NCBI GenBank assembly: GCA_020430675.1
Contig: JAGQJJ010000231.1
Location: 1 to 6,581 of the forward strand
Reading direction: 5' to 3'
DNA from: Myxococcales bacterium
Lineage (GTDB): Bacteria; Myxococcota; Bradymonadia; UBA7976; UBA1532
Length of the DNA: 6,581 bases
Position 1 is the first letter of the stretch, and each line of letters opens with the position of its first letter. The translations under genes were made by a program, and so were the position numbers. The notes under the pieces were generated by a model. The model worked only from the letters and a program-made list of their open reading frames with translations. It was not told the origin of the DNA and ran no database searches. Below are positions 1 to 6,560 of this stretch, piece by piece.

Positions 1-519
1 ATCGTTCTCGTTGGCCTTGCGGGCCAGCGCCGCGCTCAGATGGCGCAGCGCGGGCAGCAGGTGCTCGTGCGCCAGCAGCGCCGCCGCGACGTGAATCGCC
101 GTCGGGATCACGTCATTGCTCGACTGGCTCATATTGACGTGATCGTTGGGGTGCACCTTCTCGCCGAGCAGCGCCGTGGCGCGGGTCGAGATCACCTCGT
201 TGGCGTTCATGTTCGACGAGGTGCCCGAGCCGGTCTGGAAGATGTCGATCGGGAAGTGCGCGTCGTGATCGCCGCGCGCGACCTCTTCGGCCGCGAGGCG
301 GATGACCTCGGCGCGCTTCTCATCGATGAGCGCCAGGTCCAGGTTGGCGCGGGCCGCGGCGCCTTTGATCAGCCCCAGCGCCCGGATCATCGCCCGGGGC
401 ATGGGCAGGCCGCTGACCGGAAAGTTGTCGACGGCCCGCTGCGTCTGGGCCTGATAGAGCGCCCCGGCGGGCACCCGCACTTCGCCGAGGCTGTCCTTCT
501 CGATGCGATACTCGCTCAT
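1..519 (-). CDS. fumC: Class II fumarate hydratase, N-terminal 173 residues (runs off left edge)
   Basis: Fumarase catalyses reversible hydration of fumarate to L-malate in the TCA cycle, in the cytoplasm; the class II form is an iron-free homotetramer. Reading the minus strand from the ATG at 519-517 gives a protein starting [17 protein letters not shown]. It has two family hallmarks: [13 protein letters not shown] at residues 97-109 and [14 protein letters not shown] at residues 123-136, which carry substrate-binding Ser, Thr, His and Asn residues. The frame is open to the window edge, so about 290 residues of the usual ~460 are missing, including the second catalytic region and the GSSxMPxKxNP signature. 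An AGGAG Shine-Dalgarno (530-526) sits 6 nt before the ATG and fixes the start. It is transcribed divergently from the DUF2330 genes. Aspartase and argininosuccinate lyase share the superfamily fold, but the N-terminal motifs fit FumC best. Confidence 0.95.
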
Positions 520-596: not shown

Positions 597-612
597 GGAT
601 TTCGCGAGATCC
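597..612. promoter_or_regulatory. 16-bp near-perfect palindrome, candidate regulator-binding site
   Basis: The sequence GGATTTCGCGAGATCC is an inverted repeat of form GGATnTCGCGAnATCC, with one non-pairing position per arm. It sits between fumC and the first DUF2330 gene, centred about 69 bp upstream of the start site predicted from the sigma-54 element at 648-663. A dimeric activator or repressor could bind here; for a sigma-54 promoter this would be a close upstream activating site. A second, shorter palindrome, CCCGCGCGGG, abuts it at 589-598. In GC-rich DNA short palindromes arise by chance, so the role is inferred from position only. Confidence 0.35.
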
Positions 613-647: not shown

Positions 648-663
648 CGGCACGGCATTTGCG
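648..663 (+). promoter_or_regulatory. Sigma-54 (-24/-12) promoter of the first DUF2330 gene
   Basis: CGGCACGGCATTTGCG matches the RpoN consensus TGGCACG-N4-TTGCW except at the first and last positions. The invariant GG (649-650) and GC (661-662) are separated by exactly 10 nt, as required. The implied start site is near 674, leaving a leader of about 22 nt that contains the GGGAGG ribosome site (683-688) before the ATG at 696. A related element sits at the equivalent place before the downstream paralog, which strengthens the call. Transcription would need an AAA+ enhancer-binding protein; none is encoded in the window. Confidence 0.75.
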
Positions 664-695
664 ACCGCCCCGGCCAACCCCCGGGAGGTTCGCTC

Positions 696-2408
696 ATGAT
701 GAAGGACGCATCGAAGGCCGGCGCGACGCTGCTGCTCGCCGCCGCCGCCCTCACCCCCACCTCGGCGCTCGCCTGCGGCGGGTTCTTCTGCGGAACCCAG
801 CCGGTCGATCAACAGGCCGAGCGCATCATCTTCGTTCAAGAAGACCCCGACACCGTCACCAGCTACGTCGAGATCGCCTACCAGGGCGCGCCCGAAGACT
901 TCGCCTGGGTGGTGCCGGTGCCGGCGCTGCCCGAGCTTGATGTCTGGCATGGCCGCGCCTTCAACGCGCTCGACCTGGCCACCCAGCCCCAGTATCGCGG
1001 CCTCGATTGGTGCTTCCTCGACGCCGACGCCGATGGGATCCCCGAGGCGGACGAGAACGGTGGCGACGGCGAGGTGCAGGTGCTGGCCGAAGAGCGCGTG
1101 GGCCCCTTCGACACGGCCACCATCGAGTCCCGCGACCCGCGCGCGCTGGTCGAGTGGCTGCGACTCAACGACTACCGCATCCCCCCGGCCATGGAGCCCT
1201 TCATCGCGCTGTACACCGACGAAGGCATGAAGTTCCTGGCCATGAAGCTGGCCCCCGGCGAAGGCACCGAAGGCATCCAACCGATCAAGATGACCTATCG
1301 CGCCGGCGGGCCCGCGGTGCCGTTGCGCCTGACCGCAGTCGCCGCCCTGCCCGAGATGGGGGTCAAGGTCTGGATTCTCGGCGAGTCGCGCTACGGGCCA
1401 TTGAACATGCCCGAGGTGCTCATCCCCGACGCCGAGGTGCGCTTCGATCCCTTCAGCGGACAGGTCAACTACCCCTCGCTGGTGGCGCGCAAGGTCGACG
1501 ACGCGGGTGGGCATGGCTTCGTGACCGAGTTGGCCGCCCCGACGGCGCCGCTGCTACAGACCATTCGCAACCAGCGGGTGCCGGCGCGCTTCGGCCAGGA
1601 GGGCATCGACGCCCAGCAGGCGTTGATCACGCTGTTGGAGAGCCGGCCCTATATCACGCGGCTCTATACGCGCCTGAGCCCCGGCGAGATGGACCTCGAC
1701 CCGCTCTTCGGCCCTGTCGCGGGTGGCGAGGTTTCGAACATTCACGACCTGCCGGGCGATCCCGCCGAGATCGGCTGCGGCTTTGACGCCGACGCCGATG
1801 CGCTGCGCGCGGCGGCCTGCGACCGGGCCACCTGCGGCGCGGCGGGCACCTGCGTCGCGGTCGGCGTCGACAACTGGCGTTACAACGCCGGCTGCGCCTG
1901 CCCCGAGGGCACCGTCGCCCGCGCGCTGCCCGACGTGCAGTACGGCGTCGCGACCTCGTGCGTCGACGTGCGGCTGAACTTCACCGCGCCCGCGCTCGAT
2001 CAGGGCGTGCTCTCGCTGCCCGACGCCTGCGCCAGCAACCCCTGCGGCGACCACGGCGAGTGCGTGACGCATAACGGCTTCCCGAGCTGCCGCTGCGAAC
2101 GCGGCTTTGTGGCGGTCGCCGGCTATAACGCCGAGCGCATGCCGGTGCCGATCTGCGTCGCGCCCGCGGTGCCGGTGCCGGCCGCGGCCTATCAGCGCGC
2201 GGTGCGCGAGCCGAACCTGCCCTATCCGGGGCGCGTCAGCCCGTTGCAAGGCCCCGGAGTACAGATCCCAGTCAACCCGCCCGACGGCGGCGGCCTGCCC
2301 GGCGTCGCCGAGGGCTGCACCAGCGCGCCCGGTGCGCCGACGAGCCCGCTCTGGGCCCTGCTGATCCTGCCGCTGGGCCTGGTCGCCCGCCGGCGTCGGA
2401 TCCGATGA
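696..2408 (+). CDS. Secreted DUF2330 protein with two EGF-like modules and MYXO-CTERM-like anchor (paralog 1)
   Basis: The product has 570 residues and no known biochemical function. A signal peptide (about 1-26) ends Ala-Leu-Ala, so the mature protein would begin CGGFFC (Cys27, Cys32). Residues ~27-345 resemble DUF2330 (Pfam PF10092), including AERIIFVQED (41-50) and FAWVVPVP (69-76). An acidic loop, DADADGIPEADE (109-120), resembles a thrombospondin type 3 calcium site. Two EGF-like modules follow, with six Cys each: 375, 380, 386, 400, 402, 422 and 445, 450, 456, 465, 467, 487. A Pro-rich motif VREPNLPYPGRVSP (503-516) precedes a Gly/Pro linker, Cys541, a hydrophobic stretch (552-564) and RRRR (565-568), a MYXO-CTERM-like sorting signal. 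The ATG at 696 is chosen because GGGAGG (683-688) lies 7 nt before it and the signal peptide starts there; ATG at 699 is an alternative. The frame stays open upstream to 582, but that extension lacks support. A surface-anchored role is inferred. Confidence 0.9.
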   Translation: MMKDASKAGATLLLAAAALTPTSALACGGFFCGTQPVDQQAERIIFVQEDPDTVTSYVEIAYQGAPEDFAWVVPVPALPELDVWHGRAFNALDLATQPQYRGLDWCFLDADADGIPEADENGGDGEVQVLAEERVGPFDTATIESRDPRALVEWLRLNDYRIPPAMEPFIALYTDEGMKFLAMKLAPGEGTEGIQPIKMTYRAGGPAVPLRLTAVAALPEMGVKVWILGESRYGPLNMPEVLIPDAEVRFDPFSGQVNYPSLVARKVDDAGGHGFVTELAAPTAPLLQTIRNQRVPARFGQEGIDAQQALITLLESRPYITRLYTRLSPGEMDLDPLFGPVAGGEVSNIHDLPGDPAEIGCGFDADADALRAAACDRATCGAAGTCVAVGVDNWRYNAGCACPEGTVARALPDVQYGVATSCVDVRLNFTAPALDQGVLSLPDACASNPCGDHGECVTHNGFPSCRCERGFVAVAGYNAERMPVPICVAPAVPVPAAAYQRAVREPNLPYPGRVSPLQGPGVQIPVNPPDGGGLPGVAEGCTSAPGAPTSPLWALLILPLGLVARRRRIR

Positions 2409-2417
2409 ATTTCTGTG

Positions 2418-2428
2418 TCGATCATCGA
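2418..2428. repeat. 11-nt perfect inverted repeat after paralog 1
   Basis: TCGATCATCGA has 5-bp arms around a single central base. It starts 9 nt after the stop codon of the first DUF2330 gene. With so short a loop it is unlikely to form a stable RNA hairpin, so a protein-binding site or chance is more likely than a terminator. Confidence 0.25.
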
Positions 2429-2434
2429 GAAACC

Positions 2435-2451
2435 ACCCCGCCGCGCGGGGT
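2435..2451 (+). terminator. GC-rich hairpin between the paralogs, terminator-like but without a T-tract
   Basis: A perfect 7-bp stem (ACCCCGC and GCGGGGT) closes a 3-nt loop CGC, 26 nt after the stop of paralog 1. It is followed by AAAA instead of a run of T, so it is not a classical intrinsic terminator in the plus direction. It could act as a transcript-end stabiliser or weak terminator. Because it is centred about 54 bp upstream of the start site predicted for paralog 2, it could instead be an upstream binding site. A similar CCCCGCGCGGG run lies upstream of paralog 1 at 588-598. Confidence 0.35.
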
Positions 2452-2470
2452 AAAACGGCGCTGCGGGCGA

Positions 2471-2486
2471 TGGAACGCAACTTGCT
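2471..2486 (+). promoter_or_regulatory. Sigma-54 (-24/-12) promoter of the second DUF2330 gene
   Basis: TGGAACGCAACTTGCT matches TGGCACG-N4-TTGCW at all defined positions but one (A for C). The GG (2472-2473) and GC (2484-2485) are 10 nt apart. The implied start site is near 2497, giving a leader of about 17 nt with GGGAGG at 2501-2506 and the ATG at 2514. The element lies in a 105-bp intergenic gap, so paralog 2 can be expressed independently of paralog 1. GG-to-ATG distance is 42 nt here and 47 nt at paralog 1, a 5-nt difference within otherwise alignable leaders. Confidence 0.78.
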
Positions 2487-2513
2487 AGCGCCCACCCGCC
2501 GGGAGGTTTATTC

Positions 2514-4244
2514 ATGAAAAAGCGCGCACTCGCTTCTTTTGCCGGCGCCGGGCTCCTCGCCGGCGCTCTCGCCCTGCCCTCCGCGGCGCTCGCCTGCGGT
2601 GGCTTCTTCTGCAACTCGACGCCCGTCGACCAGTCGGCGGAGCGCATCATCTTCGTGCAGGAAGACGCCAACACGGTCACCAGCTACGTCGAGATCACCT
2701 ACCAGGGTGACCCCGAGGCCTTCGCCTGGGTGGTGCCCATCCCCTCGGTGGCCGAGCTGGGCGTGCTGCCCGGCGGCGCGTTCAACGCGCTCGATCTGGC
2801 CACGCAGCCCCAGTTCGAGATTCCGTGGGGCGGCTGCTTCGAAGCGGCGGCCGGCGGGGTCGACGACGCCGACGGCAACGGCGCACCGCCGCCGGGCGAG
2901 GTCAACGTGCTCGACCAGCAGCGCGTGGGCCCCTTCGACACCGCGACCATCGAGAGCGATGACCCCCGGGCGCTGATCGAGTGGCTGCGGCTCAACGAGT
3001 ACCGCATCACCGAAGAGATGGAGCCCTTCGTGGCGCTCTATACCGCCGAGGGCATGAAGTTCCTGGCGATGAAGCTGGCCCCGGGCGAAGACACCGCGTC
3101 GATCCAGCCCATCAAGATGACCTATCAGGCCGCCGGCCCCGCGGTGCCGCTGCGCCTGACCTCGGTCGCCGCGCAGCTTGAGATGGGGGTGAAGATCTGG
3201 ATTCTCAGCGAGGGCCGCTACGGGCCGCTCAACGTGCCCGATCTGGCCATCGAAGACGCCGATCTGGTCTTTGATCCGCGCAGCTACTCGACCAATTACC
3301 TGGCGCTGGTCGCCCGCAAGGTTGATGAGAACAACGGCCACGGCTTCGTGACCGAGCTCTCGCAGCCCTCGGCGCCGCTGGCCCAGACGGTGCGCGAGAG
3401 CTTCGTGCCCGAGTGGGCCGGCCAGGAGGCGATCGACGCCCGCGACTCGCTGGCCAAGCTGCTGGAGAGCAAGCCCTATATCACCCGCCTCTACACGCGC
3501 CTCAGCCCCGAAGAGATGGACCTGGATCCGGTCTTCGGCCCGGTCGGCGGCGGCGACGTGTCGAACCTGCACCGCGTCGAGGTACCCGAAGACCAGCAGG
3601 ATCTGTGCGGCTGGGAGCCCGAGGCGGCCGAGGCCTTTGACGCCTGCGACTTCGCCGCCTGCGGCGCCGGCGGCGCCTGCGCCGAGGTCGCGGTGGGCGA
3701 CGGCAACGGTGGCTTCAACCAGGCCGGCTGCGCCTGCGCCGAGGGCATGCTGGCCCGCGCCGGCATCGATCCGGCGGGCCTGCCCTTCGTCTCGTGCGGC
3801 GACGCGCGCCTCAACTTCACCGCGGTCGGCCTCGACAACGGGCCGGTGAGCTTCCCCGACGCCTGCGCGGCCAATACCTGCGGCGACAACGGCGAGTGCG
3901 TGATGCTCAACGGCTTCCCGAGCTGCCGCTGCGCCACCGGCTACGTCGCGGTCGCCATCGCCGACGCCGAGGGCATGCCGTCGGCGACCTGCGCCGCGCC
4001 CATCGCCCCGCTGCCGGCCAACGTGCTCGCCGGCCTGACCGTGCGCGAGCCGAACCTGCCCTACCCCGGCCGCGTCTCGCCGATGGAGCCCTACAGCCCG
4101 ATGATGCCCCCGGTCGCCGGTGATGGCGGCGGCATGAAGGGCTCGGGCGGCGGCGGCTGCACGTCGACGCCCGGCGCCCCAGGCGCGCCCGCCGGCCTCA
4201 TCGCGCTGCTGCTGGCCCTTCCGTTCATTCGCCGTCGGCGCTGA
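2514..4244 (+). CDS. Secreted DUF2330 protein with two EGF-like modules and MYXO-CTERM-like anchor (paralog 2)
   Basis: The 576-residue product is a close paralog of its upstream neighbour. In the block starting VGPFDTATIES (residues 138-220 here, 135-217 in paralog 1) I count 69 of 83 identical residues. The signal peptide has a basic start (MKKR) and ends Ala-Leu-Ala before CGGFFC (28-33). DUF2330 covers about 28-347, with FAWVVPIP at 70-77. An acidic loop, DADGNG (118-123), follows Cys108. EGF-like module 1 uses Cys 378, 383, 389, 406, 408 and 428; module 2 uses 451, 456, 462, 471, 473 and 493. VREPNLPYPGRVSP recurs at 510-523, followed by a Gly-rich linker, Cys549, a hydrophobic segment (560-572) and terminal RRRR, as in MYXO-CTERM proteins. 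A GGGAGG ribosome site lies 7 nt before the ATG. The function of DUF2330 is unknown; export and surface anchoring are inferred. It differs from paralog 1 mainly around residues 98-137 and in the linker. Confidence 0.93.
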   Translation: MKKRALASFAGAGLLAGALALPSAALACGGFFCNSTPVDQSAERIIFVQEDANTVTSYVEITYQGDPEAFAWVVPIPSVAELGVLPGGAFNALDLATQPQFEIPWGGCFEAAAGGVDDADGNGAPPPGEVNVLDQQRVGPFDTATIESDDPRALIEWLRLNEYRITEEMEPFVALYTAEGMKFLAMKLAPGEDTASIQPIKMTYQAAGPAVPLRLTSVAAQLEMGVKIWILSEGRYGPLNVPDLAIEDADLVFDPRSYSTNYLALVARKVDENNGHGFVTELSQPSAPLAQTVRESFVPEWAGQEAIDARDSLAKLLESKPYITRLYTRLSPEEMDLDPVFGPVGGGDVSNLHRVEVPEDQQDLCGWEPEAAEAFDACDFAACGAGGACAEVAVGDGNGGFNQAGCACAEGMLARAGIDPAGLPFVSCGDARLNFTAVGLDNGPVSFPDACAANTCGDNGECVMLNGFPSCRCATGYVAVAIADAEGMPSATCAAPIAPLPANVLAGLTVREPNLPYPGRVSPMEPYSPMMPPVAGDGGGMKGSGGGGCTSTPGAPGAPAGLIALLLALPFIRRRR

Positions 4245-4280: not shown

Positions 4281-5267
4281 ATGCAACCCGGTCGCTGTCC
4301 CTGCCATCCTGACGCCGCCCTGCGCCCCGTGGTGCGAGACGCGCCCGACACCTTCTGGGGGTGTCCGGGCGCGTTTTCGTATGGACGCTGCCCCGAATGC
4401 GGCTCCTGGGTGCTCGATCCGCGCCCCGCGCCCGACGAGATGGGCCCGTTCTACGCCCACTATTACAGCGACGACGAGCTGGCGGCGGCGCGCAAGGCCT
4501 TCGCTGACAAACCCGCAAAAGCCGCGCTCGGCCTCGACGGGCTGCGGGCCCAGGTCGTCGCAAAACAGTTGCAGCACCTGGGGTTGGCGCTGAAAGGTGC
4601 GCGCCTGCTCGACGTGGGCTGCGGGCTCGGCGGATTTGCGCGCGCCCTGCGCGATCAAGCGGGCGTCGAGGCGCGCGGGGTCGACTTCAACCCCACCTGC
4701 CGCGCCGTCGCCGCCGAGCTGCACGGGCTCACCGTCGATGTGGGCGAGCTGGCCGCGCAAGGCTATGCCGAGGGCAGCTTCGACCTGATCACGAGCTGGC
4801 ATTGCCTGGAGCACACCTACGACCCGGGCGCCGAGCTGCGCGAGATGGCCCGCGCGGTGCGGCCCGGGGGTCTGGTCATGGTCGAGGTGCCCACCCCGAC
4901 CTTCTGGGCGCGCCTGTTCCGCGGGCGCTGGTTCTTCCTGCAGGCGCCGACCCATCTCTACCACCTGCGACCGGCCACGCTGCGCGCGCTGGTCGAGGGC
5001 GCCGGGTTGTCAGTGGTGCAGCTCTCACGGCCCTACGTGCCCACCGAGCTGGCGGGCAGCGTGCTCGCCGCGCTGGGGCTCCGCGGCTTTGCGCCGCGGC
5101 TGCTTTTTGGTCCCCGTACGCTCGCTGATCATCTCTGGCGTATGCTGTTCTGGACGCTTTTGCCTCTCGACTTCGCGCTCACCGCCGGGCAGGCTCTGTT
5201 CGGCGGCGCCGGTGTTTTGCGGGTGTTCGCCCGCCGCCCGTTGCGCGATGATGCGGGGTCCGGCTGA
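4281..5267 (+). CDS. Class I SAM-dependent methyltransferase with Cys-rich N-terminus
   Basis: This 328-residue protein should transfer a methyl group from S-adenosylmethionine to an unidentified substrate. The N-terminus carries Cys6, Cys8, Cys28 and a CPEC pair (Cys37, Cys40), followed by DPRPAPDE. This resembles the small zinc-binding segment preceding the catalytic domain in many Methyltransf_23-like proteins, though the first pair is spaced C-x-C rather than C-x2-C. Motif I is LLDVGCGLGGFA (109-120), the acidic ribose-binding strand is GVDFNP (133-138), motif II is FDLITSWHCLEH (167-178) and motif III is VRPGGLVMVEVP (193-204). THLYHLRPATLRALVEGAGL (224-243) is typical of the family. Residues ~284-312 are hydrophobic and may sit at the membrane. 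The ATG at 4281 is the only plausible start: the frame is closed by the upstream gene's own TGA at 4242-4244, and no GTG or TTG intervenes. No good Shine-Dalgarno is visible. Relatives often act in cell-surface glycan or lipid pathways, but that role is a guess here. Confidence 0.9.
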   Translation: MQPGRCPCHPDAALRPVVRDAPDTFWGCPGAFSYGRCPECGSWVLDPRPAPDEMGPFYAHYYSDDELAAARKAFADKPAKAALGLDGLRAQVVAKQLQHLGLALKGARLLDVGCGLGGFARALRDQAGVEARGVDFNPTCRAVAAELHGLTVDVGELAAQGYAEGSFDLITSWHCLEHTYDPGAELREMARAVRPGGLVMVEVPTPTFWARLFRGRWFFLQAPTHLYHLRPATLRALVEGAGLSVVQLSRPYVPTELAGSVLAALGLRGFAPRLLFGPRTLADHLWRMLFWTLLPLDFALTAGQALFGGAGVLRVFARRPLRDDAGSG

Positions 5268-5285: not shown

Positions 5286-6560
5286 ATGGAGACGACCGCC
5301 CTGGCGCATACTCATATCGGGCAGGTCAAGCCCACGAATGAGGACGCCTGGCTCATCGAGCCTTCGCTTCAGTTGTTCATGGTCGCCGATGGCATGGGCG
5401 GGCACGCCGCGGGCGAAGTGGCCAGCGCGATGGCGGTTGATGAGGTGCGGCGCATCATCGGCGCCGAGGAGGCCCTGCTGCGACGCTTCGCCGAGACCGG
5501 GAAGGGGCGGGGCGAGATCCTGCAACTGCTCGAAGACGCGGTGCGCAACGCCGGGCGGGCCATCTATGACACCGCGCAGGCCGACGCCAGCAAGCGTGGC
5601 ATGGGCACCACCAGCTCGCTGCTGCTGCTGACACCGACGCGCGGCTTCATCGCGCACGTCGGCGACAGCCGGGTCTATCTCATCCGCCAGGGCGAGGTCT
5701 TTCAGCTCACCGAGGATCACTCGCTGATCAACGAGATGATCCGGCGCGGCCGCCTGAAGCCCGAAGAGGCCAAGCGCGCGCCCTACAAGAACGCGGTGAC
5801 CCGCGCGGTGGGCGTCTACGCCGATGTGCAGGTCGACACGCTCGACTTCGAAGTGGCCACCGGCGACCAGTTCCTGCTGTGCAGCGACGGCCTGACCGAG
5901 CACGTCGACGTGCTGGCCGAGGTGGTCGGCGTGCTCGACGGCAAACAACCGGGCGGGCCGGCCGCGGCGCTGGTCGACATGGCCAACAAGCGCGGCGGCA
6001 AGGACAACATCACCGCGCTGGTCGTGCGGGTCGAGAGCGGCGGGCAGGACGCGCGGCGGGTCAAGGGCCCGCACGAGATCTCGCTCAAGCTCAACGTGCT
6101 GCGGCATATGCCGCTGTTCCAGCACTTGACCTACGTCGAGCTGGTCGAGGTGCTCAACGTCAGCGACGTGCACACCTTCGGCGCGGGCGAGCTGGTCTTC
6201 GACGAAGGCTCGCTCGGCGAAGAGATGTTTGTGGTGCTCGAAGGCATGGTGAGCATTCGCAAAGGCAACGTCGAGCTGGCTCGGCTGGGGCCCGGCGGGC
6301 ATTTCGGCGAGATGGCGATCATGGACAAGGGCCCGCGCTCGGCCCGCGTGACGGCCGAGCAGGCCTCGCGGCTGATCGCGGTCGGCCGGCGGCCGCTTTT
6401 TGCGCTGATGCGGCGCGACAAGGAGATCGCGGTCAAGCTGCTGTGGTGCTTCGTGCAGGTGCTCAACCAGCGGCTGCGCGTCACCAACGCCGATCTGCTG
6501 CGGGCGCGGCTCGACAAGAACGAGCTGCAGGGCCTGCTGCACCTCGATGACTTCGACTGA
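5286..6560 (+). CDS. PP2C-type Ser/Thr protein phosphatase fused to a cyclic-nucleotide-binding domain
   Basis: The product has 424 residues and no signal peptide, so it is probably cytoplasmic. Residues ~1-250 form a PP2C (PPM) phosphatase, which uses two metal ions to dephosphorylate Ser/Thr. Visible motifs are PTNED (16-20), VADGMGGH (33-40), GMGTT (105-109), HVGDSRVYLI (124-133), TEDHS (142-146), LCSDGL (198-203) and GGKDN (237-241). They supply the metal-binding acids Asp35, Asp127, Asp201 and Asp240. Lys15 stands where most relatives have the phosphate-contacting Arg. After a linker, residues ~270-395 form a cNMP-binding domain. Its phosphate-binding cassette GEMAIMDKGPRSARV (341-355) has the ribose-contacting Glu342 and phosphate-contacting Arg351, so it looks competent to bind ligand. 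A GGGAGG site (5276-5281) lies 4 nt before the ATG, and the gene begins 18 nt after the methyltransferase stop, suggesting one operon. Ligand-gated control of phosphatase activity is inferred. Likely partners are Hanks-type kinases, none of which are in the window. Confidence 0.95.
   Translation: METTALAHTHIGQVKPTNEDAWLIEPSLQLFMVADGMGGHAAGEVASAMAVDEVRRIIGAEEALLRRFAETGKGRGEILQLLEDAVRNAGRAIYDTAQADASKRGMGTTSSLLLLTPTRGFIAHVGDSRVYLIRQGEVFQLTEDHSLINEMIRRGRLKPEEAKRAPYKNAVTRAVGVYADVQVDTLDFEVATGDQFLLCSDGLTEHVDVLAEVVGVLDGKQPGGPAAALVDMANKRGGKDNITALVVRVESGGQDARRVKGPHEISLKLNVLRHMPLFQHLTYVELVEVLNVSDVHTFGAGELVFDEGSLGEEMFVVLEGMVSIRKGNVELARLGPGGHFGEMAIMDKGPRSARVTAEQASRLIAVGRRPLFALMRRDKEIAVKLLWCFVQVLNQRLRVTNADLLRARLDKNELQGLLHLDDFD

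Follow-up and report, generated by a model that had tools for sequence, protein, structure and literature searches.

The DUF2330 locus and its predicted promoters

The window is a 6581-base stretch of DNA from a Myxococcales bacterium in which two paralogous DUF2330 genes (61% identical) lie in tandem on the plus strand, gene A at 696..2408 and gene B at 2514..4244. Each is preceded by a predicted sigma-54 -24/-12 core promoter. Site A (CGGCACGGCATTTGCG) is located at 648..663 of the plus strand, with its GG at 649-650, its GC at 661-662 and a predicted transcription start near 674. Site B (TGGAACGCAACTTGCT) is found at 2471..2486 of the same strand, with GG at 2472-2473, GC at 2484-2485 and a predicted start near 2497. 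In both cases the GG-N10-GC spacing is exact, and the ATG follows 47 nt (position 696) and 42 nt (position 2514) downstream of the first G. The coordinates therefore bear out the initial annotation, which had claimed -24/-12 elements with this spacing at these distances. A ribosome-binding site common to both genes (GGGAGGTT), which it had also proposed, lies at 683..690 for gene A and at 2501..2508 for gene B (plus strand).

The consensus recognized by sigma-54 is TGGCACG-N4-TTGCW (TGGCACGNNNNTTGCW). Site A differs from it at 2 positions and site B at 1, which makes them the top two among the 7 matches with at most 3 mismatches in the window. Shuffled sequences are expected to give 10.9 such matches, so there is no excess over chance, and the case for the promoters rests on their position and on conservation elsewhere. 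Between the -24 box and the ATG the two leaders are similar, with an alignment score of 19.5 (shuffles: mean -3.6, sd 3.0, maximum 5.5). This similarity is absent in the 55 nt farther upstream, where the score of -1.5 resembles that of shuffles (mean -3.8, sd 3.2). The leaders are thus alignable, as had been proposed, but the string given for them was wrong: it is GGnACGnnAnTTGC rather than GGnACGnCAnTTGC, position 8 being C at site A and A at site B.

The weaker of the two sites raises the question of whether both are active. In a weight matrix site A scores 13.4 and site B 17.8, and in site A the GG is preceded by C instead of T while the GC is followed by G rather than A or T. These features would suit a situation in which only site B works as a sigma-54 promoter, site A being a decayed remnant and gene A being expressed by other means. 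Site A nevertheless keeps the GG, ACG and TTGC letters and the spacing, and no sigma-70-like promoter was found as an alternative in a scan of 500-2560. Moreover, two related loci (L006 and L007), in which the class II fumarase gene fumC lies across the promoter as it does in the window, carry TGGCACG...TGCT at that same fumC-adjacent place. A decayed site A is accordingly judged improbable, with a small chance of being right.

Two further elements lie near the sites. A perfect 7-bp inverted repeat, ACCCCGC-CGC-GCGGGGT (2435..2451, plus strand), ends 19 nt ahead of site B and may be a regulator site or a hairpin. Upstream of site A, the near-palindrome GGATTTCGCGAGATCC (597..612, plus strand) is another possible regulator site.

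Both products belong to PF10092 (DUF2330), with 111.9 bits for A and 122.7 bits for B against a Pfam gathering cut-off of 24.7. Gene A encodes a signal-peptide-like start, the DUF2330 domain, a Cys-rich region and a MYXO-CTERM-like tail; gene B encodes a DUF2330 domain with a P35-like predicted fold and a MYXO-CTERM tail. In both proteins CGGFFC comes after an Ala-Leu-Ala signal-peptidase-like site. The B tail is a member of TIGR03901 (MYXO-CTERM; 21.0 bits, curated cut-off 20), whereas the A tail, at 18.4 bits, falls narrowly beneath the cut-off and resembles MYXO-CTERM without being counted as a member. Like MYXO-CTERM surface proteins, the two products have a signal-peptide-like start, a Cys-bearing C-terminal motif, a hydrophobic helix and an Arg cluster. 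Sorting of such proteins is attributed to myxosortase in excerpts of PMC11980579. We infer from these sequence features that the DUF2330 products are exported and anchored at the surface through the MYXO-CTERM tail.

The remaining genes of the window are a partial fumC (1-519, minus strand), a methyltransferase gene (4281-5267) and a gene for a PP2C phosphatase with a cyclic-nucleotide-binding domain (5286-6560). The methyltransferase and phosphatase are also found downstream in L001 and L006, in the latter behind other genes.

Recurrence of the site upstream of DUF2330 genes

The matrix was applied to DUF2330 genes from other genomes. A first set comprised 70 loci from named genomes, in which the 200-nt stretch between 60 and 260 nt ahead of the CGGFF codon was scanned; 80 genes were counted, from 85 rows minus 4 without the anchor and 1 with a short upstream region. 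A score of at least 12 was reached by 16 of these 80 genes; random windows drawn from these loci reach it at a rate of 0.36%, which predicts 0.29 genes. The set was then enlarged with paralogs from related genomes, and after omission of 6 anchorless rows and merging of duplicates it held 125 genes, of which 21 score at least 12 and 16 at least 14. Among the 21, two are the window's own genes and two others (L061 and L067) are near-identical. The first count used the base composition of each locus and the later ones a fixed composition, which moved a few genes by roughly 1 unit (L055 from 12.5 to 11.8 and L041 from 10.7 to 12.1). Three further sites were overlooked because of the gene anchor or the range: L016 (14.0), L017 (15.1) and L087 (16.7; TGGCACGAAGTATGCT).

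Previously unused DUF2330 genes gave a similar picture. A phylum-wide scan covered 282 genomes, 26 of which had a match at a strict E-value (one anchorless row omitted). Over a slightly wider range, 5 of 11 previously unused genes score at least 12 (L217, L219, L230, L231 and L232); in L231, 140-164 nt separate the site from the candidate ATGs.

Two controls address specificity. When 114 upstream regions were searched for a GGnnn box paired with TGCW, 22 had the pair at the distance typical of sigma-54, compared with 0-6 for each of twelve alternative distances. Among the other genes in these loci that have an intergenic space of 60 nt or more, 11/320 score at least 12, and these include the misfiled DUF2330 genes L016 and L017; for DUF2330 genes the same count gave 19/96. 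The sites could in principle be chance matches in GC-rich DNA, their apparent pairing being produced by a duplicated leader. The match count within the window and the paralogy of the two genes are in keeping with this, yet it is contradicted by a recurrence across genomes far beyond what random windows, the other genes of the loci or alternative spacings show, and we give it next to no probability. The initial annotation had argued that two independent matches were unlikely by chance. Position and recurrence elsewhere uphold the non-chance part of the argument; "independent" is not strictly right, because A and B are paralogs and one promoter may have been inherited by both.

Some records in these sets are irregular. 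In L087 the site is only 37 nt ahead of the mature-protein codon, which leaves no room for a signal peptide and is perhaps an assembly fault. Records titled Klebsiella pneumoniae or Prochlorococcus (L036, L047 and L070) hold myxobacterial-type DUF2330 loci, so their titles or bins look wrong; L070 has upstream site letters in common with L020.

Distribution of the site within the family

A tree was built from the DUF2330 domains of 113 of the 125 genes (more than 200 bits, at least 200 residues), 20 of them labelled as site-bearing. The label clusters on this tree, requiring 13 changes compared with a shuffled mean of 18.5, and none of 500 shuffles was as low. In the clade of the window, sites were found in 10 of 16 genes, or 11 when L087 is added on the wider scan. 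The promoter is probably ancestral in this clade. Conservation of the GG and GC dinucleotides in related leaders, which the initial annotation had put forward as a check, holds in the window clade and beyond, though not throughout the family.

DUF2330 genes are often present in several copies. G001 and G005 have about 10 genes each, their 15 and 13 matching stretches including several pieces of a single gene. Tandem pairs, defined by less than 400 nt from a stop to the next CGG codon, number 12 distinct cases. A site scoring at least 12 precedes the first gene in 7 of them (the window, L005, L238 (the same as L087/L077), L038, L040, L230 and L139), and the other 5 (L018, L059, L031, L063 and L056) have none. 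The window pair is the only one of the 12 with a site before the second gene. A recent duplication giving rise to A and B was considered. The two are not paired in the tree, but a topology that joins them is not rejected (p-AU 0.136). In L003 and L004 (at about 5700-6100) two divergent DUF2330 genes from separate subfamilies flank a common intergenic region, which has no sigma-54 site.

RpoN, activators and perfect sites in related genomes

Of 45 genomes with DUF2330 genes, 38 have the DNA-binding domain of RpoN (PF04552), among them every one of G001-G015, and we infer that the host possesses rpoN. Activator domains (PF00158) are abundant, with 59 in G001, 61 in G002 and 62 in G006. Eight related genomes contain 59 perfect consensus sites with N4, compared with 7 for the backwards pattern and 10 with N5. 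When 60 distinct perfect sites were read, 2 were within a called gene, genes being called by a simple script; with L066 omitted, 2 of the 59 are within genes and 8 have no called gene downstream.

These results bear on whether the element could be of another kind, such as a repressor site or the site of another sigma factor, that merely resembles -24/-12. Such a reading gains from the fact that sigma-54 is deduced here from sequence and that no enhancer site was found. It has to explain, in turn, why both boxes match with exact spacing, why rpoN is so common in these genomes, and why perfect sites genome-wide mostly lie outside genes and in front of them. We consider it very unlikely.

The genes behind perfect sites lean toward exported-looking products (31 of 47 distinct non-DUF2330 proteins, compared with 120 of 315 controls; p 3e-4), where export was called with a crude scripted rule and the control genes were taken from the flanks of DUF2330 loci, not solely from those eight genomes. 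Lipoprotein-like products are likewise more frequent (12/47 compared with 39/315; p 0.02). MYXO-CTERM proteins as the regulated class were also considered and rejected: such tails were found in 1 of 48 (possibly a DUF2330 gene itself) and in 4 of 315 controls. The lack of enrichment indicates that the association seen is with DUF2330 and not with the tail. In L160 (1001-1031), two identical perfect sites 15 bases apart precede one lipoprotein-like gene that appears trypsin-like by eye.

Probable sigma-54 control of the DUF2330 genes

At GG(-24)/GC(-12) promoters, bound sigma-54 RNA polymerase stays in the closed state and needs an ATP-driven enhancer-binding protein to open it. The window sites resemble RpoN promoters in their GG-N10-GC spacing, their TGGCACG-N4-TTGC letters and their short distance to the start codon, and related genomes have rpoN and many enhancer-binding proteins. 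The window sites differ in that the regulated genes belong to an uncharacterised family and that no enhancer site or activator was found for them. It is highly likely, judging from these sequence signatures, that sites A and B are genuine RpoN core promoters, each starting transcription of its own DUF2330 gene. Very probably, part of the DUF2330 family is included in a regulon of surface proteins under tight on/off control. Sigma-54 control of both genes, as first proposed, is supported by the recurrence before related genes and by the spacing peak; that an enhancer-binding protein would throw the switch, as was also proposed, is to be expected from what is established about sigma-54, though no such activator was found.

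Several observations weigh against sigma-54 control. Besides the departures of site A from the consensus, the matrix is our own approximation of the consensus, 104 of the 125 DUF2330 genes score below 12, and 6 of the 11 previously unused genes have no site. Within the window clade, L003, L004, L009, L005_3 and L077_7 lack a site, the last two being second genes of tandem pairs. One site-bearing locus, L061, sits in a genome (G033, 3.5 Mb) without an rpoN match. No activator gene was found beside DUF2330 among the matches listed for G001, G002 and G006, and 6-mer enrichment over 79 promoters revealed no common enhancer motif (best p 1.2e-3, uncorrected).

The search for enhancer sites did give some dyads. 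CCCCG/CGGGG dyads occur at window site B, L001 and L075 and are rare in the background (0.007 per 120 nt), as are GTGAA/TTCAC dyads (0.003 per 200 nt), which occur in L012, L062 and L139. TCGCGA dyads at window site A, L038, L054 and L065 are not rare (0.064 per 150 nt). Since each is present in at most 4 of 21 promoters, the dyads remain leads only. GTGAA/TTCAC dyads or half-sites lie upstream of the sites in L012, L062, L139 and L099, which belong to different DUF2330 subfamilies, and may represent an activator site.

Under sigma-54 control, the polymerase would sit closed at sites A and B, so that DUF2330 expression would be off without a signal. A signal would then act through an enhancer-binding protein to open each promoter, both sites being active, and each would transcribe its own DUF2330 gene. 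The proteins, with their MYXO-CTERM-type tails, would then be exported and displayed on the surface. With a promoter of its own, gene B could have its dose or timing set apart from gene A.

Predicted fold of the DUF2330 domain

In a structure comparison, the model of the DUF2330 domain unexpectedly appeared to resemble the fold of the P35/P49 caspase inhibitors, Foldseek E-values alone being weak. Relative to baculovirus P35/P49, DUF2330 shows about 10% identity and no sequence match; it is bacterial and probably exported, and the likeness is one of predicted fold. A profile search of PDB sequences (E<=10) listed no P35 match, and neither did a comparison of 58 DUF2330 members with Pfam; remote kinship is possible in both cases. 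In a domain alignment using 58 of 109 listed domains, the putative N-terminal Cys of the mature protein is C in 58/58, though the CGG anchor served to pick them. Domain residues 79-100 form a hypervariable, low-confidence loop, and residues 1-7 are likewise of low confidence.

The P35 mechanism is described in excerpts of PMC3375223, where inhibition of the bacterial protease gingipain-K is also mentioned. DUF2330 proteins might represent a branch of the P35/P49 protease-trap fold located at the surface of bacterial cells, with sigma-54 switching on part of them. The mature N-terminal Cys would then take the role of the P35 amino terminus and the 79-100 loop that of its reactive-site loop, and the proteins would trap cysteine proteases from prey, rivals or hosts. 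Derived from a structural model, this proposal is speculative and probably wrong, with a small but real chance of being correct. If the P35-like fold were confirmed, it would raise the question of the origin of the viral caspase inhibitors.

Significance for the DUF2330 family

Control of the bacterial exterior by sigma-54, lipoproteins included, is already in print, as seen in excerpts of PMC3162934, and the lean of related genomes toward exported-looking proteins behind perfect sites is similar to what they describe. A 2025 survey reports enrichment of cell-wall and type II secretion functions in Myxococcia (PMC12316311). No mention of DUF2330 or PF10092, nor of MYXO-CTERM together with sigma-54, was found in the open-access papers searched. 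The theme is thus known and DUF2330 as a member of it is new, consistent with the initial annotation, which had called the placing of DUF2330 in a sigma-54 regulon new to its knowledge. The DUF2330 result is in line with this published picture, in which sigma-54 regulons favour the cell exterior. An uncharacterised, often multi-copy family gains a regulatory handle, and since expression should depend on RpoN together with one activator out of about 60, the inducing signal would become searchable.
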